NCBI RefSeq assembly: GCF_007625205.1 | Contig: NZ_VMNI01000007.1 | Location: 186,001 to 250,000, forward strand | DNA length: 64,000 bases | Direction of reading: 5' to 3' | Origin: Denitromonas ohlonensis | Lineage (GTDB): Bacteria; Pseudomonadota; Gammaproteobacteria; Burkholderiales; Rhodocyclaceae | In this document: piece by piece, positions 19,217 to 63,808 of the stretch | Numbering within the stretch: position 1 is the stretch's first letter | Layout: the number at the start of each line of letters is the position of its first letter | Notes under the pieces: generated by a model | Database searches by the model: none | Told to the model about the DNA's origin: nothing | The model's input: the letters and a program-made list of their open reading frames with translations, nothing else | Position numbers and translations under genes: made by a program

Positions 19217-20398
19217 GTGGCAGATCATTCCGGGCTCTCGCTCGATTTCGATACCCTGGCAGTGCGCGCAGGCATTGAGCGCAGCCAGTTCAACGAGCAC
19301 AGCGAGGCGATGTACCTCACCTCAAGCTTCGTGTTCGACAGCGCAGCGCAAGCGGCGGCGCGTTTTTCCGGCGAAGAGCCTGGCAATGTGTACGCGCGCT
19401 TCACCAACCCGACGGTCTCGGCCTTGCAGACCCGTCTGGCCGCGCTCGAAGGCGGCGAGGCCTGCGTGGCCACGGCGTCCGGGATGGCGGCCATCCTGTC
19501 GACCGTGATGGCCTTGCTCAAGAGCGGCGATCACATCGTTGCCTCGCAGGGACTGTTCGGATCGACGCAGCAGTTGTTCGGGAATGTCTTTTCGCGTTTC
19601 GGGATCGAAACCACCTTCGTGCCCGCTGCGGACATCGCGGCGTATGATGCGGCGGCGCGTCCGAACACCCGGCTGTTCTTCGTCGAAACCCCGTCCAACC
19701 CGCTCACCGAACTGGTCGATATCGCTGCCGTGGCCGAAGTCGCCCATCGTCACGGTGCATTGCTGGCTGTCGATAACTGTTTCTGTACGCCTGCGCTGCA
19801 AAAACCTTTGGCGCTGGGTGCCGATCTGGTCATTCATTCGGCCACCAAGTATCTCGACGGACAGGGCAGGGTACTCGGCGGCGCCGTGGTCGGCGCCGCA
19901 TCGCTGACCGAAGAAGTCTTCCGCTTCCTGCGCACTGCCGGACCGTGCCTGTCGCCCTTCAACGCATGGGTGATTCTCAAAGGCCTGGAAACGCTGCGTA
20001 TCCGCATGGAAGCGCAAAGCGCCAGTGCGCTCGCGCTGGCGCAGTGGCTCGAAGCGCAACCGCAAGTCGAACGGGTGTATTACCCGGGCCTGCCGTCGCA
20101 TCCGCAACATCAACTGGCATTACGCCAGCAGGGCTCGGGTGGGGCGATCGTCAGTTTCGATGTCGTCGGCGGTCGTGCTGCAGCGTGGCAACTGATTGAC
20201 GCGACGCGCCTGATATCAATCACGGCCAACCTGGGCGATACCAAGACCACCATCACCCATCCGGCTTCGACCACGCACGGTCGCATTTCGGCGGAAGCGC
20301 GCGCGGCGAGCGGGATTGGCGAAGGTCTGATTCGTGTGGCCGTCGGGCTGGAGTCGGTGGCTGATTTGCGGGCGGACTTGGCGGGACTGACTCGCTGA
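19217..20398 (+). CDS. metZ: O-succinylhomoserine sulfhydrylase
   Basis: A 393-residue Cys/Met-metabolism PLP enzyme that makes homocysteine from O-succinylhomoserine and sulfide. The PLP lysine is K211 in SATKYLDGQGR; YARFTNPT and ATASGMAAI are further markers. GTG 19217 is the start, with an AAGGA site. metZ after purF is typical of betaproteobacteria and pseudomonads, and distinguishes it from metB/metC. It is the last gene of the long run from fimV and is followed by a strong terminator. Confidence 0.9.
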   Translation: MADHSGLSLDFDTLAVRAGIERSQFNEHSEAMYLTSSFVFDSAAQAAARFSGEEPGNVYARFTNPTVSALQTRLAALEGGEACVATASGMAAILSTVMALLKSGDHIVASQGLFGSTQQLFGNVFSRFGIETTFVPAADIAAYDAAARPNTRLFFVETPSNPLTELVDIAAVAEVAHRHGALLAVDNCFCTPALQKPLALGADLVIHSATKYLDGQGRVLGGAVVGAASLTEEVFRFLRTAGPCLSPFNAWVILKGLETLRIRMEAQSASALALAQWLEAQPQVERVYYPGLPSHPQHQLALRQQGSGGAIVSFDVVGGRAAAWQLIDATRLISITANLGDTKTTITHPASTTHGRISAEARAASGIGEGLIRVAVGLESVADLRADLAGLTR

Positions 20399-20418
20399 CA
20401 TTGTCGTGAGACATCTCG

Positions 20419-20450
20419 AAAGGCGCTGACGAAAGTCCGCGCCTTTTTAT
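20419..20450 (+). terminator. Rho-independent terminator after metZ
   Basis: AAAGGCGC (20419-20426) pairs with GCGCCTTT (20439-20446) and is followed by TTTTATTTT. It lies 20 bases after the metZ stop and closes the fimV-to-metZ gene run. Confidence 0.85.
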
Positions 20451-20782
20451 TTTGGAAGTCAGTATGTAAGAGTCTGTAGCAAAGATTCCTGCGGATCACT
20501 TTCTTCAGTGGCCGGCTTTGCCTTGCTACTCGCCGGATCGAGCATGGAAGTGCACTTCTGGCGTGTGCTTTAAGCCCATGGCGTCAGCGTTTCACTGTGA
20601 GTTTGCATGGCGCAAGATTGGGAAACGCGTCTATTTCTGACGATGAACCGTAACGTCGCGCTGACTGGCTGCGCGCGTTCGCTCCAACTGATCCGGTGTG
20701 TCCGCCTCGTCGTCCAGTCACTGTTCTGCCGTGCTCTTGTCGTGTTGCACTGAAGAGCTCGTCGCTGACATGGAGGTTGCAC
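20451..20782. other. 332-base noncoding gap before the heme/hydrolase gene
   Basis: No convincing gene, RNA or repeat was seen. Reading frames here do not have starts with ribosome-binding sites, except the TGGAGG (20771-20776) that serves the downstream gene. The long gap between a strong terminator and an isolated gene implies that it carries that gene's own promoter, but I could not pick a convincing -35/-10 pair. Confidence 0.5.
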
Positions 20783-23700
20783 ATGCGCTGGATGCTGGCT
20801 TTGCTTTTAGTCGCGCTTGCAAGCATTGCTTTGGCCGACGACGACACGACGACGCCATTGATCTGGGTCGAATTCGATATTGATCGCACGCCTTCGCAGT
20901 ACCAGGGGATGCAGTTCGATCACCCGGATGTATGCATCTCGTTACCTGAAGTGAACAATCGGGTGCACAACCAGAAATCCGCCGGCAATGCACCCAACGG
21001 TATCAGCGGCCCCGGCCGTCTCATGCGTCGTGACAAGACCGGGCGGGTGACTGTTCTCTACGACTGTGCCGCTGCCGGGAAGATCTGTATGCCTACGGAT
21101 CCTCGCCTGTCGTTTGATGGCACGAAAGTGGCGTTCACGCTTTATCACGGTAGTCAGTGGGAGCCGGTGTGTGGTTCAAGGAACAGGGTGCTGGCCGGGG
21201 TGTCTGGCGCCAGCGTCGCTATTCATGATTTGGTCACTGGGTCCACTACCGCTTGGCCCTATAAGCCAGGGCAGCATGACCTGACGCCGGCATTCGTGAA
21301 TCAGAACGGTCGTTTGCGGGTGACGTTTTCATCGGATCGCGATCGCGAGTACGAGCCATTGTTGCCGCGAATGTCTGTTCAGGGCTATGCAAACCTGCAA
21401 ACCTATTTCGCCGATCTCGATGGCGCGAATGTCGTCAAGACGGGTTATCACGACATGGCCAGTTTTTACGGTGCGACTCAAATTCGGGATGGCCGATTGA
21501 TTGGCTCGTGCGCCCAGTGGGGCCATGATCTGGCCTATATCGGTTATGGCCCGGTTTACACCAATTACCCGGGAACCCTTCTGAATCAATGGTGGATATG
21601 CGCGACCGATCCTTGGGGCGGCTCTCAGGAGTCGTCGTTCGGTGCGCATTATCGTGGCCGTGCCTTGCACTGGGTCAGCCAGCTCCAGGACGGCAGGCTG
21701 GCGGTTGGGGAGTACTACCGAGGCAATAATAATCAGGGGGCGGGCAAGATTTTTCTGTGGTCGCCCAAGCCGTTCACCGTCGAGGGAGTCCCGGTTCGTG
21801 AAGCGAAGGGCCGCTTCGCCGCGCTCAACCCTCGCGATCTACTTGATGTTGCGAGTTGGGCGAACGGCAACGATGAAAAGGCACACTTCGATTTTTCCAA
21901 TGCACGCTACAAGGGCAAGATCCGCGATCCGTTTGGCTTGCCTGGGAACGCCTTGGGTTTTGTGTGGTGCCAGGGCATGTGCAACAAGCAGATGGGCCTG
22001 AAGCCGGATGGCAACGACCGTTTTGTGGAACAAGGCCCCGACCCCAGCCGGCGCCCCGCAAATATCGTCAATCCAGTCGGGATCGAGATCGGTATCTACA
22101 AATTGCCGGCGGACAAGATCCCGTCGGATGATTACCAGCGCGACCCGGTGCGTTTGATTGATCGACCGGGAGTGGCTGAATACGGAGCGATTTACGGCGG
22201 GCCGTATATCGATGTTCACGGTCAAGCCACACCCGACAACGTCGCACAGCCACGCTCAGAAGATGGAAAGTGCTATTTGCATATCGCGTCCCAGCAGTCT
22301 GAGACGAAGGCCTATCCGGTGCTGCATGGCAACTACCGCTGGGGGCATCAGGAGTTGTCGCCCTTGCTTGGCAAGGAACTGGTCGGAGTCAAAGATGCCG
22401 ATGTGAAGTACATCCGGATTACCCAGGTGCTGCCGAATACCGAGCGAGTGCGCAATTTCGCCGGGGAAGGTCGGCAGTGGTGGTCGGTGTGGGGGTATCG
22501 TGGGGCGATTCTTGGCGACGCGCCCGTCGAGTCGGATGGCTCGGCAAACATCGAGGTGCCCTGCGATGTGCCTTGGGTGCTGTCTGGTCTGAACGCCGAT
22601 CACGAAGTGATTCGTCGAGACATGATGCCGCAGTCCTTGCGCCCGGGCACTGTACTTAGTTGCGGCGGTTGCCACAACCACAATGATATTGATGCGTCCC
22701 CCGAGTTTTCTGGCAGCCTCGCCGCAATGCAGCCGCCGACGCGCCTGCTCGTCGCGACCCGTCAGCCCGAATACAACGCGGATATCGTGCCGATTCTCAA
22801 CCGTCGTTGTGTCAGCTGCCACCGTGGATCGCAAGCCGCGGGGGGCATTGATTTTGACGACCGTGATGCCTCTGATGGAATGACGACGGTAAAGATGCTC
22901 ATCAACGACTTTGAGCAAAAGGTAAATCCGCGCCCTGTGCAAGTGCATCAGCGCTCGGAGGGTTATTCCGAGAAGGCTGTGTATCGCCTCGATCGACCGC
23001 ACATCTCCTGGCTGATCAACGGAAACTACGCCGCCGGCTCCGCCTTCTACTGGTATTTCAAAGGGCGCCGGGCGGACTATCGAACGAATGCAAGCACGAG
23101 TAATGACATTGATTTCAATGCAGCACATCCGGACGTCGGTGCCAGTGCCGAGGAGGTGACGGTGGTGCGGAACTGGATCGATACCGGTGCGTTTGTCGAT
23201 CCGACCGTTCCTGCGCCACGTTATGATGGGGAGGGCACCAGGCGTGTGCCGCCATCACCGGGCGTCAGCGGAGGCGGTCAGGCGGGTGCCAAGGGCGGTG
23301 GTGGCGGTGGGGTTGACCGGCAGCCCGTTGGCTATCTGTCGGCGCCCGAGCGACCGGCAAAGACGGGTGGCGGGCCGGCGGGTAAGTGGGCGTGGTTCCC
23401 GGGCGTGTGGCAGATTGCCAATGAACGGTATTTCGATCCTCATGGCGTGGATTTTCAATGGGCGTATTCACGCACGGATCCGGTGCCGCCCCGCATGCGT
23501 CTGTTTGTGCACCTGCATGGCTCGTCCGCAGGAAATGGCGCCGGCATGACGCAAGTCTTCGCGCCACCGCTTGCACGGGCGGGTCAGATCGAATTGCGCA
23601 ACCAGGACGCCGAAGCGCATCAGGGCGCCTGGCGGGAGTCTTGGGCATACGGTGCGGACGGGCAGATTTATGCGGGCCGGAGGTTGGCCGGGTCTATTGA

Positions 23701-24601
23701 ATACTTGTTGCAGCGCTACCCCCAGATTGATGTTGATAAATTGGGTATCGTGCTCAAAGGCGGCTCAATGGGCGGTGGGGGTGCAGTGAGTCAGAGCATG
23801 ATTCTGCCCGACCCGTGGCGCGCGCGAATTGCCTACGTGACCGGGGCTATTGGCCTGATCATGCCGCGCCGGATCGCGCAGCGTAACCCCGGCATGTACG
23901 CTGGCTGGCCGCCCGACCGGGGGGGCGGCAGGGTCTCTTGGGATCGCATCGATTTCGCCATTCAGGCTGAGCGTGATCCGGTCGTGCGAGGGATTCACTA
24001 TCGCCACGTGTTCTCCACGGATGACGGATTCAGCGCCGGACCGGATGGTAATACACAGCTGGAATTCGTGAATCTGGTAGAGAAACACCGTATTGGCGGG
24101 GCGTTTTCCTGGTTTCGGAACGGGCACAATTCATCCGAACCGGGGGTGAGCCTGCCCGCGCTGTCGGAGTTCGAGGCCCCGGAGCAGGACGTCACACTGG
24201 ACCGGGCGCATCCCGCATTTACACGGTCTACCGGAAACCACCCGTTGTTGGCGGAGGATCGGGTTGATGAAGCACGCTTTCCGCGCGGGCACTACAACAT
24301 GGGCTTGTTGTGGGATCACGCGAAAATCGTGGATACGGCCTCACAACTTGTGTTCCCGATTCGCTATAAACGGCGGACCGGTATCGGCGCGGAGGTGCCC
24401 GATCAGCCGGCGCGCATCACCGTCAGTGTGACGCCGCGTCGGTCAGCGCATTTCCGCCTGCACGAAGGGGAGCGGATTCGTTGGTCTTGGGATGGTGGCG
24501 CCCTGGAGGGCAGCGCGCTTGTGCTTGGCGACACGGTGACTGCAGACGGCATTCCGTTGATTTCCGGTGAGCCGTACAAGACGCTGAGGTTTTATAAGTA
24601 G
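20783..24601 (+). CDS. Secreted HzsA-like propeller / di-heme cytochrome fused to alpha/beta-hydrolase-like domain
   Basis: A 1272-residue exported protein; signal peptide cleaved after about residue 18 (ASIALA). Residues ~20-600 look like a propeller with PD40/TolB-like repeats (DPRLSFDGTKVAFTLYHGS, VTFSSDRDREYEP) and resemble the hydrazine synthase alpha-subunit family. Two c-type heme motifs follow: CGGCH 627-631 and CVSCH 676-680, the latter in the PILNRRCVSCH context common in fused cytochromes. A glycine-rich linker (~826-870) leads to a C-terminal region with HGSS at 912-915, a GGSMGGGG nucleophile-elbow-like turn (Ser 995) and a late His 1115, suggesting an esterase-type fold. TGGAGG upstream fixes the start. 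The gene stands alone between metZ and convergent lpxH. Substrate and partners are unknown; hydrazine synthesis is not implied. Confidence 0.7.
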   Translation: MRWMLALLLVALASIALADDDTTTPLIWVEFDIDRTPSQYQGMQFDHPDVCISLPEVNNRVHNQKSAGNAPNGISGPGRLMRRDKTGRVTVLYDCAAAGKICMPTDPRLSFDGTKVAFTLYHGSQWEPVCGSRNRVLAGVSGASVAIHDLVTGSTTAWPYKPGQHDLTPAFVNQNGRLRVTFSSDRDREYEPLLPRMSVQGYANLQTYFADLDGANVVKTGYHDMASFYGATQIRDGRLIGSCAQWGHDLAYIGYGPVYTNYPGTLLNQWWICATDPWGGSQESSFGAHYRGRALHWVSQLQDGRLAVGEYYRGNNNQGAGKIFLWSPKPFTVEGVPVREAKGRFAALNPRDLLDVASWANGNDEKAHFDFSNARYKGKIRDPFGLPGNALGFVWCQGMCNKQMGLKPDGNDRFVEQGPDPSRRPANIVNPVGIEIGIYKLPADKIPSDDYQRDPVRLIDRPGVAEYGAIYGGPYIDVHGQATPDNVAQPRSEDGKCYLHIASQQSETKAYPVLHGNYRWGHQELSPLLGKELVGVKDADVKYIRITQVLPNTERVRNFAGEGRQWWSVWGYRGAILGDAPVESDGSANIEVPCDVPWVLSGLNADHEVIRRDMMPQSLRPGTVLSCGGCHNHNDIDASPEFSGSLAAMQPPTRLLVATRQPEYNADIVPILNRRCVSCHRGSQAAGGIDFDDRDASDGMTTVKMLINDFEQKVNPRPVQVHQRSEGYSEKAVYRLDRPHISWLINGNYAAGSAFYWYFKGRRADYRTNASTSNDIDFNAAHPDVGASAEEVTVVRNWIDTGAFVDPTVPAPRYDGEGTRRVPPSPGVSGGGQAGAKGGGGGGVDRQPVGYLSAPERPAKTGGGPAGKWAWFPGVWQIANERYFDPHGVDFQWAYSRTDPVPPRMRLFVHLHGSSAGNGAGMTQVFAPPLARAGQIELRNQDAEAHQGAWRESWAYGADGQIYAGRRLAGSIEYLLQRYPQIDVDKLGIVLKGGSMGGGGAVSQSMILPDPWRARIAYVTGAIGLIMPRRIAQRNPGMYAGWPPDRGGGRVSWDRIDFAIQAERDPVVRGIHYRHVFSTDDGFSAGPDGNTQLEFVNLVEKHRIGGAFSWFRNGHNSSEPGVSLPALSEFEAPEQDVTLDRAHPAFTRSTGNHPLLAEDRVDEARFPRGHYNMGLLWDHAKIVDTASQLVFPIRYKRRTGIGAEVPDQPARITVSVTPRRSAHFRLHEGERIRWSWDGGALEGSALVLGDTVTADGIPLISGEPYKTLRFYK

Positions 24602-24623
24602 GTGTGTTTGTTGGTTGTGTCGG

Positions 24624-25367
24624 CTAGATGCGTAGTTCTTTACGACGCAAGACGCCGTCCAAGCACTCTAGATAGGGGGCACTACCATGCCAGTCAGCCA
24701 AGACCCAGCGCTCGCATGGCTGATTCTCGATGTCGTGAATATGGGTCGCCGGGCGGTGGGTGTGTCCGTGGATCATCAGGCCGCATTCGGCGCTCTGGAA
24801 GGCTGAAACAACCGCGGATTCGTTGACGTCCATGATGTCGGCCGCTTTTTGCTGCTTGCCAGCTTCGCTTTGCGCGCGGATGCCTTCGATGATGGCTCGG
24901 CGCTCGTCGAGCGGGCGGGCGAGAAATGCGGCTTGCCAGTCAGGGTTTCGGACTTGTTGTCGGAAGGCCTGGTAGGCGTGATCGTCGGTGCACAAGACGT
25001 CACCGTGTAGAAGGACCGCGTCGCGTCCGCCAAGCGAAATGGCGACAGGTTCGATGGCGAGCGCGATGCCGGTCGCCGCGCAGAAGTCTGCGCCGATCAG
25101 AAAATCGCGGTTGCCGGCCACGAAGATGACGGTGGTGCCGCTGGCTGTGAGATCGGTGAGGTGATCGGCAATGTGGCGGTGATACGGGGCGGCGAGGTCG
25201 TCGTCGCCAGCCCAGTACTCGAAGAGATCGCCGAGGATGTACAGCGTTTTGGCCTGGCGCGCGGGTCCGGCCAAAAAAGCTTCGAAGGCGCGCGTGGTCG
25301 CGGCCTCGGCCGCACACAGGTGCAGGTCGGCAATGAAGAGAACCGGTCCGTCCACCTGTGTGCCCAT
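24624..25367 (-). CDS. lpxH: UDP-2,3-diacylglucosamine diphosphatase
   Basis: A 247-residue metallophosphoesterase of lipid A synthesis, peripheral to the inner membrane, hydrolysing UDP-2,3-diacylglucosamine to lipid X. The metal-binding blocks appear in order: FIADLHL, LGDLFEYW, GNRDFLIG, LLHGDVLCTDD and GHTHRPA. It starts eight bases after the ppiB stop, so it is the last gene of ppiA-ppiB-lpxH. It converges with the heme/hydrolase gene with a 22-base gap. Confidence 0.94.
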   Translation of the reverse strand: MGTQVDGPVLFIADLHLCAAEAATTRAFEAFLAGPARQAKTLYILGDLFEYWAGDDDLAAPYHRHIADHLTDLTASGTTVIFVAGNRDFLIGADFCAATGIALAIEPVAISLGGRDAVLLHGDVLCTDDHAYQAFRQQVRNPDWQAAFLARPLDERRAIIEGIRAQSEAGKQQKAADIMDVNESAVVSAFQSAECGLMIHGHTHRPATHIHDIENQPCERWVLADWHGSAPYLECLDGVLRRKELRI

Positions 25368-25375
25368 GGGCGCGA

Positions 25376-25870
25376 TCAGATGATCTCGGCGCGCTCGATG
25401 ATGACGTCTTCGGTCGGCACGTCCTGGTGGAAGCCGGACGAGCCGGTCTTGACCGCGCGGATAGCGTCAACGGTTTCCAGGCCTTCGGTCACACGCCCGA
25501 AGACGCAGTAGCCCCAGCCCTGCGGCGACGGCGAGCGGTGGTTCAGGAAGTCGTTGTCAGACACGTTGATGAAGAACTGGGCGGAGGCTGAGTGCGGATC
25601 CTGGGTGCGCGCCATGGCAATCGTGCCTTTGTCGTTCTTCAGGCCGTTGTCGGCTTCATTCTTGACCGGTTCGTTGGTCGGCTTTTGCTTCATGCCGGGC
25701 TCGAATCCGCCGCCCTGAATCATGAAGCCGTCGATCACACGGTGAAAAATGGTGTTGTTGTAGTGGCCGGCCTCGACATAGGCCAGAAAGTTCTTGACCG
25801 TCTCGGGCGCTTTTTCAGCGTCGAGTTCGAGGGTCATGGTGCCGTGATTGGTGTGCAGTTTGACTGCCAT
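25376..25870 (-). CDS. ppiB: Cytoplasmic peptidyl-prolyl isomerase (cyclophilin B)
   Basis: A 164-residue cyclophilin with no signal peptide. Conserved active-site blocks are [22 protein letters not shown] and the tryptophan loop. The start at 25870 is preceded by AAGGAG; the frame extends further upstream without support. The ppiB-lpxH pair is common in beta- and gammaproteobacteria. A second, exported cyclophilin lies immediately upstream. Confidence 0.94.
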
Positions 25871-25898
25871 GTGATGCTCCTTGCGTGTTCGGGTGAGA

Positions 25899-26459
25899 TT
25901 ATTTGCTGCCGGTGATTTCACGGGCGCTGCGAATGGTGATGTCCTCGGTGGGGACATCGCGATGACCGCCAGCGATGCCGGTCGGCGCGGCGCCGATGGC
26001 TTTGACCACGTCCATGCCTTCTACGACTTTGCCGAATACGGCGTAACCCCAACCATCAAACGAGGGGTAGTCGAGCTTGCTGTTGTCGACGAGGTTGATG
26101 AAAAACTGGGCGCTGGCCGAGTGCGGATCGCTGGTACGTGCCATGGCGATGCTGCCGGGGACGTTGCTGAGGCCGTTCTTGGCTTCGTTCTTGATGGGCT
26201 CGCGGGTGCTCTTCTGCTTCATGCCGGGCTCAAAGCCGCCGCCCTGGATCATGAAGCCGGGAATGACGCGGTGAAAGATCACGCCATCGTAGAAGCCGTC
26301 ATTGACGTATTTGAGAAAATTTTGGGTTGTCACCGGTGCGGCTTTGTCATCGAGTTCGATGACGATCTGGCCTTTGTTGGTTTCGAGTGCGACCTTGGGG
26401 CCAGCGTAGGCGGCGCCTGTGGACAATGCAAAGCTCAGCGCGAGCAACAGTGCTTTCAT
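25899..26459 (-). CDS. ppiA: Periplasmic peptidyl-prolyl isomerase (cyclophilin)
   Basis: A 186-residue cyclophilin with a Sec signal peptide ([19 protein letters not shown], cleaved near residue 19), so it acts in the periplasm. It carries [27 protein letters not shown], very like the neighbouring cytoplasmic copy, and [13 protein letters not shown]. The two genes are 28 bases apart and probably arose by tandem duplication followed by gain or loss of the export signal. Confidence 0.9.
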
Positions 26460-26534
26460 GGTGTTTACCTGTGTCGGTTTTTGGGGTGAGCGGGGTGGTG
26501 TGCCCCGGCACGTCAATTGCGAGAGATCAGCGAA

Positions 26535-61788: not shown

Positions 61789-63759
61789 TCAGCGTGCGCG
61801 GATTTCGACCAGTTCAAAAATGTCTTCTTCAATTTCGGCGTTGCTTGCGGCCTTGGTTGTGCGCACCATTTTGACATAGCGTTTGGCTTCGGGCGCGTAC
61901 CACACATCGAAGTGAACCGTTGTCGGTTCAATATCGCGCATGGCGGAGCCGCCGGTCGCCAAGCGGGTGCTCCACACTTCGATGCGAACGGTGTCGAAGC
62001 TGCCCGCCGGCACACGTACGCGCTCACGGCCATCGACTTTTGCCACTGTGTTCCAGTCGCCCCAGCGGCCTTCGAGTTTTGGTGTGCTGATGCTGCGCCA
62101 GCGCCCGGAATTGGTGGGCGGGTCAAATGCGCCCATCCAGGGGCTGAACTCCCAGCCGATGTCGCCCCAGTCGACCAGTGTCGCTTGCGTACCGGGTGAG
62201 CGCCGAAGCACGGCGCGGGCGGGCTTGGGGGCCAGGACGCTCATGTTTTCGTACACCGTGTTGCCGTCCACCCGGTCCGTGGTGAATTGGAGCGTGCGTG
62301 CCGGGCTGGTAGGCCACTTGCCGCGGGTGCGGTAGATCCAGGTCTCGCCGGGCTGGGGGTGGGCAGAGACGACCGGCGCCGGCGGCGGTGGTGTCGGGGT
62401 CGCGAGGACTTTCTGACGCGTGCTGCCGCCGGGGCCGGTTGCGGTGAGTGTCAGCGTGGCGGGTGCGGACAGTGGCACCTTGATGCAGTTGCGGGCGGTG
62501 CTGGGGAGGTCGCCCGGGCGCGGCGTCAGGCGTAGCTGTGTACTGTTCTCGACCCGATAGCAGATGGTGGCGCCATCGGATTCGGCGCGGGCGTCGAGGC
62601 TGAGAATGCGCGGTGCGGCGGGCGCGGGGGGCGGTTGGGGCGCCGGAGCAGGCGCGGGTGTCGGCACAGCCACCGGGGCTGACGGTGTGGGCGCAGGCGG
62701 CGCCTCTGCCTCGCCGGACAGTTGCCATTGCAGTGGTTCGCCCTCAAGTTGACTGACATGCAGCGCCGCCAGATAGTTGCCGGCTTGAGCGGGAGAGAAG
62801 GCCACGGTGTAGCTGCAGCTCCCACCGGCGCGCAGTGAGTCACCACAGGTGTCGACGATGATCCGGAAGCTGCCGTGCGCGTTGTCAGTCAGGGTGCTCT
62901 TCAGCGCGGCGGGCGCCTGACCGGTGTTTCGGAGCTTCAGTTCGAGCGTCGCGGTTTTTCCGAGCGCGATGGCGTCGAACCGGGCCTCTTTGTGCTCGGC
63001 AACCAGATGTGCCACGGGGGGCGGGGCTTCGGCGGCGGGGGCATTGCGAGCGGGGGCTTCGGCCGCAGGGGGCGCAGAGGCTGGCGTGGCAGGTGGGTGC
63101 GGGGTGCCGCGATTGAGCCAGAGCCACGCGCCGACGGCCGCGACGATCAGGGCGGCGAGGGCGCCCCAGCGGCCCCAGTGCTTGGCCGGCGAGGTGGGCG
63201 TGGCAGCGGGGGGGGCAGGAATGATGGGCGGTGGGGCGGCGGGTTCGGGGTCCGCCGACGGGGCGGGCGTGGGCGCATCGTTTGCGCCAAGAATCTTTTC
63301 GAGCGTGCGGATGAGTTCGCCGGAGGTCGCGTCCCATTGTTTGTGATTGAGCTCAACGGCCTGCCGACGCACCAGGGGGCGGAGGTCTTCGGGCAGCGCC
63401 TCGTAGGCCGGCATGGGCGCGCGGTCGAGCAGGACCGGTACAACACGGATGTCGCGCGCCAGCGCGGCACGGGTTTCGAGGCGGATGAAATCGTGCGGGT
63501 CGTCGAGCCGCCGTCGGCCGTTGGCGTCGGTGGTCGACAACCATTCATCGCCGATCAGGACTATCAGGACGCGGCAGGACGCAACGGCGTTTTCGATCGC
63601 GTCGACGAAGTCCGTGCCAGGCTCAATGCCTTCCACGTCCATGAACACCCGGCCCGCGCCAAAGTGGCCAGCCAGCCGGTCATAGAGGCGGCCGGCGTAG
63701 CCGGCCGAATCGTCCCGACGATAGCTTATGAAGATGCCATCCACACTCGCAGCCCTCAT
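61789..63759 (-). CDS. Membrane-anchored TIR-domain protein with ASH-like domain
   Basis: About 656 residues. The N-terminal TIR domain (about 5-150) has GIFISYRRDDSAGYAGRLYDRL, FMDVEGIEPGTDF and a glutamate (E95, in FIRLETRAAL) at the position used by NAD-cleaving TIRs. After a Pro/Ala linker come one membrane helix (about 196-214), another linker, an ASH/HYDIN-like immunoglobulin fold (about 258-335, LELKLRNTGQAPAALKSTL ... GGSCSYTVAFSPAQAG), a second Pro-rich segment and an unassigned beta-rich C-terminal domain (about 466-656, GETWIYRTRGKW ... VPAGSFDTVRIEVW). The TIR would face the cytoplasm and the rest the periplasm. ATG 63759 is used; a TTG five codons earlier is in frame. Confidence 0.8.
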   Translation of the reverse strand: MRAASVDGIFISYRRDDSAGYAGRLYDRLAGHFGAGRVFMDVEGIEPGTDFVDAIENAVASCRVLIVLIGDEWLSTTDANGRRRLDDPHDFIRLETRAALARDIRVVPVLLDRAPMPAYEALPEDLRPLVRRQAVELNHKQWDATSGELIRTLEKILGANDAPTPAPSADPEPAAPPPIIPAPPAATPTSPAKHWGRWGALAALIVAAVGAWLWLNRGTPHPPATPASAPPAAEAPARNAPAAEAPPPVAHLVAEHKEARFDAIALGKTATLELKLRNTGQAPAALKSTLTDNAHGSFRIIVDTCGDSLRAGGSCSYTVAFSPAQAGNYLAALHVSQLEGEPLQWQLSGEAEAPPAPTPSAPVAVPTPAPAPAPQPPPAPAAPRILSLDARAESDGATICYRVENSTQLRLTPRPGDLPSTARNCIKVPLSAPATLTLTATGPGGSTRQKVLATPTPPPPAPVVSAHPQPGETWIYRTRGKWPTSPARTLQFTTDRVDGNTVYENMSVLAPKPARAVLRRSPGTQATLVDWGDIGWEFSPWMGAFDPPTNSGRWRSISTPKLEGRWGDWNTVAKVDGRERVRVPAGSFDTVRIEVWSTRLATGGSAMRDIEPTTVHFDVWYAPEAKRYVKMVRTTKAASNAEIEEDIFELVEIRAR

Positions 63760-63808
63760 GCCTTCGTACTGCAAGCATAGCAGTGGCGCGCTGCCGGTGT
63801 GGCGCCGA

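Follow-up and report, generated by a model that had tools for sequence, protein, structure and literature searches.

A stretch of 64,000 nucleotides from Denitromonas ohlonensis, here called the window, encodes at 20783-24601 of the forward strand a protein that joins two modules. The first is a core related to HzsA, the alpha subunit of hydrazine synthase. The second is a C-terminal tail with the marks of a serine hydrolase. We read the product as an exported bifunctional protein, in which a serine hydrolase would be combined with a diheme redox unit. Judged from sequence, this reading has a probability of roughly 0.45. The layout is a new architecture within the known HZS_alpha family. No report of an HZS_alpha-hydrolase fusion was found in the open-licence literature, a scope that excludes most subscription papers. 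An earlier annotation made from the sequence by a model (the original prediction) had described a single exported chain of 1272 residues. The open reading frame and its translation confirm this chain. It starts with ATG, and a GGAGG motif ends 6 bases upstream. The translation also begins with a signal-like segment, and export of the protein is therefore likely. The parts of the gene are as follows.

20783-20839, forward strand: signal-peptide-like start, residues 1-19 (hydrophobic N-terminus read from the translation, cleavage site placed by eye)
20840-22399, forward strand: N-terminal region, residues 20-539, probable beta-propeller
22400-22678, forward strand: HZS_alpha middle domain, residues 540-632 (PF18582 match)
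22661-22681, forward strand: heme I site CGGCHNH (CxGCHxH), residues 627-633, from the translation
22808-22822, forward strand: heme II site CVSCH, residues 676-680, from the translation; aligns with the second CxxCH of 5c2v_A
23126-23128, forward strand: His782, predicted from its alignment with HzsA His772 to be the distal ligand of heme II
23234-23335, forward strand: Gly/Ser/Pro-rich linker, about residues 818-851, from the translation
23366-24598, forward strand: residues 862-1272, putative serine hydrolase module whose end, at about 1182-1272, is beta-rich (elbow similarity and Ser-Asp-His set)
23765-23767, forward strand: Ser995 in GGSMGGGG, predicted nucleophile
24023-24025, forward strand: Asp1081, predicted acid
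24125-24127, forward strand: His1115 in NGHN, predicted base

A relation of the core to HzsA had been suggested in the original prediction, together with a proposal to search the N-terminal region against HZS-alpha models. This search returned a match. PF18582 (HZS_alpha) scored 48 bits on residues 540-632 against a Pfam cut-off of 26.6 (E 1.9e-12), and the protein reached 53.4 bits in the genome search. All nine members of the core alignment were matched by HZS_alpha (E up to 10). A profile built from the nine cores retrieved the crystal chain 5c2v_A at 3.7e-16 with an alignment spanning both heme sites, whereas a single-sequence search of solved structures did not retrieve HzsA. The two CxxCH sites, residues 627-631 and 676-680, are exactly where they had been placed. 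PD40-type propeller repeats fared differently. None were found in the window protein by Pfam up to E 10, but three of the nine aligned cores carry them (best E 0.0025), and on this homology a beta-propeller in residues 20-539 is probable. Across the seven rows from the genus, both CxxCH motifs, the +2 His at heme I and nine Cys in residues 20-539 are invariant. Since CcmH is encoded in the genome, c-type heme attachment is plausible. The AlphaFold2 model of the N-terminal half had a mean predicted local distance difference test score (pLDDT) of 28.3; the alignment rows for both halves were the window copy and L017-L019.

Among 398 genomes from the phylum of the window, 13 (counting the window's own) exceeded the HZS_alpha cut-off, and none of 14 control genomes did. 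In the order, with at most two candidates scored per genome, the core profile matched 29 of 399 genomes. Six of these cover the HZS_alpha region (G000, G051, G052, G421, G357 and G299); according to the match ranges, the other 23 match in the second heme segment alone. A core tree of 24 rows was rooted at its midpoint and contains two long branches (L063 and L064). It omits the distant heme proteins L057 and L060 (16.0 and 14.8 bits) as well as L045, L046 and L052, which are second views of genus genes. The CxGCHxH motif, with its +2 His at heme I, occurs in 13 of 13 rows of the clade containing the Denitromonas protein and in 0 of 11 rows of the other clade. Within the genus, the tree does not place G002 and G009 firmly relative to the remaining five rows; thus gain of the tail is indistinguishable from loss.

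Four plasmid records matched the core. Three were opened, and each encodes HZS_alpha (122-128 bits) followed by a C-terminal FGE-sulfatase domain. These are Bacteroidota plasmid proteins (L066, L067 and L068), and ccsA adjoins one of the genes, the Parabacteroides one. Like the Denitromonas protein, these three, annotated as SUMF1/EgtB/PvdO family (WP_309942884.1, WP_228002637.1 and WP_309942531.1), have HZS_alpha and then a C-terminal enzyme domain, and both of those that were read contain two CxxCH. They differ in the FGE-sulfatase nature of the tail, in an NPCBM domain (two of the three) and in lacking the +2 His at heme I (the two aligned). In G051, immunoglobulin-like (Ig-like) repeats seem, by reading, to trail the core in the longest proteins. 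The same genome has four HZS_alpha genes (L047-L050), two of which are very alike with long Ig-like repeat ends. Two of the four have copies of one and the same transposase-like pair nearby, as seen by eye.

With FGE-sulfatase and Ig-like additions in its relatives, the core thus occurs with several kinds of tail, which suggests repeated use of this heme core with a variety of enzyme tails. Such different tails would also suit a protein in which the hydrolase is the sole enzyme. The HzsA-like core would then be a scaffold, a sensor or an extracytoplasmic anchor, and its hemes would be structural or electron-storing. The Tyr that serves HzsA as proximal ligand of heme I is not conserved, as described below, which is consistent with this explanation. 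Against it stand the invariant heme motifs of the seven genus rows and the genome G009, in which the same site holds a core but no tail, the core thus being kept without a hydrolase. We regard this explanation as possible, though unlikely.

In the tail, Ser995, Asp1081 and His1115 follow each other in alpha/beta-hydrolase order with spacings of 86 and 34 residues in all six fusion copies, and they would be the catalytic nucleophile, acid and base. The original prediction had already pointed to Ser995 in GGSMGGGG and to a late histidine, and these were kept in every copy. It had also placed a glycine linker before the tail, and a Gly-rich stretch indeed precedes residue 850. Amino acid identity in the linker is only 0.28-0.62 among the four intact copies. 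The ratio of nonsynonymous to synonymous substitution rates (dN/dS) was compared over six pairs of these copies. In the core it was 0.03-0.26 and in the tail 0.09-0.30, well under 1 in each; near-saturated synonymous sites make these values approximate. The linker gave 0.17-1.26 in five pairs and no value in the sixth.

The core is present in seven of ten genomes of the genus. G000, G002, G003 and G006 carry the intact fusion, G001 and G005 carry fusions whose hydrolase part is frameshifted, and G009 has the tail-less core. The named relatives belong to Denitromonas iodatirespirans, D. halophila and one unclassified metagenome genome. They come from a scan of 84,980 species genomes by two peptide patterns, in which 27 stretches matched and 3 encoded relatives. 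Outside G000, no relative of the tail was found in 399 genomes of the order and 398 of the phylum (at most four candidates scored per genome) or among 72,556 plasmid records, scans that distant relatives could have escaped. A weak match in G036 was rejected, as it runs antisense to a longer frame and has a low-complexity appearance. In six of the ten genus genomes (G000, G001, G003, G005, G006 and G009) the gene sits at one site, with the following surroundings in the window.

19217-20398, forward strand: metZ (named by eye)
20399-24623, no strand assigned: accessory islet between metZ and lpxH (from stop-codon distances in genomes without the gene here)
24624-25367, reverse strand: lpxH (named by eye)

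The site is empty in G002, G004, G007 and G008, where the two stop codons are -4, 3, 19 and 19 bases apart. The G002 copy is located elsewhere. G004 and G007 are 86% complete, and absence of the gene from the rest of these two genomes is less sure than the empty site. The gene is thus a single-gene accessory islet in Denitromonas. The islet ends showed short imperfect repeats only, and a scan of the islet for promoters and terminators gave no excess over shuffles.

The copy in the window was compared with that of D. halophila (G005, L019). Upstream DNA and the start of the gene show an identity of 0.87-1.00 in bins of 150 bases, and identity over residues 20-580 is 0.96. Most bins then drop to 0.57-0.75, beginning near base 22500 (residue 573) and continuing to the end of the gene. 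Identity recovers in lpxH, with one more dip. The pair is thus mosaic over 22500-24700, with about 96% identity up to residue 573, about 70% after it and similar flanks, and both heme sites and the tail fall inside the divergent block. Past residue 600, the distance between the window copy and G005 (0.67 and 0.72) is about that of most other genus pairs; only the pair G001-G006 is closer than 0.80. The simplest reading of this pattern is that recombination swapped the heme-plus-tail block in one of the two copies.

The tail-less core of G009 and the frameshifts in G001 and G005 could indicate that the core does the enzymatic work, as a lone diheme oxidoreductase that is exported, and that the tail is a dispensable or decaying add-on. 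The dN/dS of the tail between intact copies and the Ser-Asp-His set of all six copies argue against this, and the frameshifts may be assembly errors. This explanation appears doubtful to us, slightly more so than that of the hydrolase as sole enzyme.

The fold of the tail was approached by several searches. The S-formylglutathione hydrolase model of NCBIfam, TIGR02821, gave weak matches in three of four tail members (best E 0.019; window copy 0.071), far short of its cut-off, with 12.6 bits against 281.7. A profile search of the PDB gave 12 weak matches. The top three were unrelated, and seven (E 0.68-1.3) were of lipase, cutinase and polyethylene terephthalate (PET) hydrolase types, matching at the elbow. 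Comparison sets for hhalign consisted of eight esterase-D, eight PHB-esterase and nine short-chain dehydrogenase proteins, with L079 and L110 excluded. The tail scored 65.9% against esterase D and 0.7% against the dehydrogenases. As controls, the reversed profile gave 0.7% and the best of 20 column shuffles 1.1% against esterase D. Esterase D, or S-formylglutathione hydrolase (PF00756, TIGR02821), thus shares the SMGGxGA nucleophile elbow with the tail. Unlike esterase D, the Denitromonas protein is exported judging by its start, is fused and has a beta-rich end, and no similarity between the two was detected past the elbow. The AlphaFold2 model of the tail, from a five-row alignment, had a mean pLDDT of 36.2, with only the last 90 or so residues mostly above 50. 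A Foldseek search with this low-confidence model returned nothing at E 0.001 and was not used.

Several results weigh against a bifunctional protein. With the elbow masked, the hhalign score against esterase D dropped to 0.3%. Against the PHB-esterase proteins it was 0.3% even with the elbow unmasked, and the esterase-D and PHB-esterase families aligned with each other at 96.4%. The similarity of the tail to esterase D is thus limited to the nucleophile elbow. Residues 850-1272 matched no Pfam family in four of four members; of the esterase-like domain that had been proposed, the conserved Ser-Asp-His in hydrolase order stands and a family match does not. HGSS, the third mark named for the tail, is found here at residues 912-915, but it is replaced by HPSA in the G002 copy. 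Two of the six fusion copies are frameshifted in the hydrolase region, no operon partner hints at a substrate, and a common pathway for both modules is a proposal only. The missing fold evidence, the similarity confined to the elbow and the two frameshifted tails are the strongest objections. Given an elbow signal and no family match, the case for a hydrolase consists of the elbow together with the conserved Asp and His in order. The tail may instead be something other than a hydrolase, with SMGGGG as a look-alike, an explanation that overlaps with that of a dispensable tail. The Pfam result, the restricted similarity and the AlphaFold2 model, which yielded no fold, would agree with it. Three residues in hydrolase order in every copy and an elbow similarity far exceeding that of the shuffles do not, and we consider a look-alike improbable.

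To our knowledge, hydrazine synthase was held to be without homologs. Like Kuenenia HzsA (PDB 5c2v), the Denitromonas protein has an HZS_alpha middle domain that closes with a CxGCH heme site. It also shares the second CxxCH, a distal His at the aligned position and an end segment of the WID type. It differs in its CxGCHxH motif, in the extra C-terminal module and in the absence of Tyr591. According to the accessible part of PMC12607021, Tyr591 is the proximal ligand of HzsA heme alpha-I, and the CxxCH His binds zinc. In the 5c2v_A alignment no equivalent lies opposite Tyr591. Residue 635, four positions past the CxxCH His, is Asp, and no aligned row has Tyr. Of the HzsA zinc site (His587 and Cys303) the CxxCH His is present; the 5c2v_A alignment is not reliable as far as Cys303. 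His782 aligns with HzsA His772 (5c2v_A chain position 745, by a 27-residue offset worked out manually) in an end segment worth only 0.1 bits, and 22 of 24 rows have His there. Heme II of the core is thus predicted to be bis-His ligated by His680 and His782. The HzsA equivalog NF052339 gave 15.5 bits, far below its cut-off of 800.

A gene for a beta-gamma partner was sought in the 64-kb window, the genome beyond it not being searched. The only other frame in the window with at least two CxxCH is dnaJ-like, and therefore no beta-gamma partner is adjacent. At eight CxGCHxH loci (G002, G009, four of G051, G052 and the second of G438), no neighbour in the longest-frame gene list has at least two CxxCH, except a dnaJ-like gene near that of G009. 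A short frame with one CxxCH lies near one of the G051 genes.

The accessible text of PMC12758564 reports that HZS_alpha relatives exist outside anammox bacteria, that Tyr591 is missing in its clades I-III and His772 in clade I homologs, and that relatives of the alpha subunit have no other confirmed function. As in the non-anammox proteins covered by the available parts of PMC12758564 and PMC10732223, HZS_alpha with heme I is present here and the HzsA active-site residues are not conserved. The clades of PMC12758564, as far as its accessible text describes them, were picked for adjoining beta-gamma-like genes, whereas the Denitromonas gene is a lone one. Further differences are the hydrolase-like tail and the aligned His772 of the Denitromonas protein. 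By the markers tested, the fusion protein is probably not a hydrazine synthase, and its core would be a redox unit that lacks the machinery for making hydrazine. N-N chemistry of the hydrazine synthase type, as known from anammox, for which the HZS_alpha domain and the apparent retention of His772 as His782 could speak, is very hard to reconcile with the equivalog score, the missing Tyr591 equivalent and the lack of an adjacent beta-gamma partner.

In the bifunctional protein that we favour, residues 20-815 would form the HzsA-related core, in which a probable propeller is followed by the HZS_alpha domain, carrying heme I, and by a cytochrome domain, carrying heme II. Residues 862-1272, carried on a flexible linker, would form the serine hydrolase with Ser995, Asp1081 and His1115 and a small beta-rich end. 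The hydrolase would most likely act outside the cytoplasm and cut an ester-type bond in an organic substrate. The heme core may oxidise or reduce the same substrate, or it may exchange electrons with a soluble partner. A polyester substrate is not claimed, because its link to Denitromonas is ecological only: the accessible part of PMC5818489 lists Denitromonas among the genera that were dominant, during one stage, in a denitrifying reactor with poly(butylene succinate)/bamboo. Should the coupling prove real, the protein would be a new kind of bifunctional exported enzyme. Because esterase activity can be assayed, the fused probable serine hydrolase gives a way to approach the substrate. A natural tail-less copy, found within the genus at this very site, makes the modules separable experimentally. 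A wider and rather speculative proposal treats the HzsA core as an exported, general-purpose redox chassis taking various catalytic tails. The product of the Denitromonas hydrolase would be passed to heme I, and the metZ-lpxH islet would be a slot exchanging heme-plus-hydrolase blocks between species. If true, this would define a new class of coupled hydrolase-oxidoreductases and would show a role of the HzsA fold besides anammox.

Two further loci of the window were noted by eye. Adjacent genes for a pair of cyclophilin-type peptidyl-prolyl isomerases, one with a signal-like start, lie at 25379-26516 on the reverse strand. At 61792-63774, also on the reverse strand, a protein starts with a TIR-like segment (FISYRRDDSAGYAGRLYDRL).

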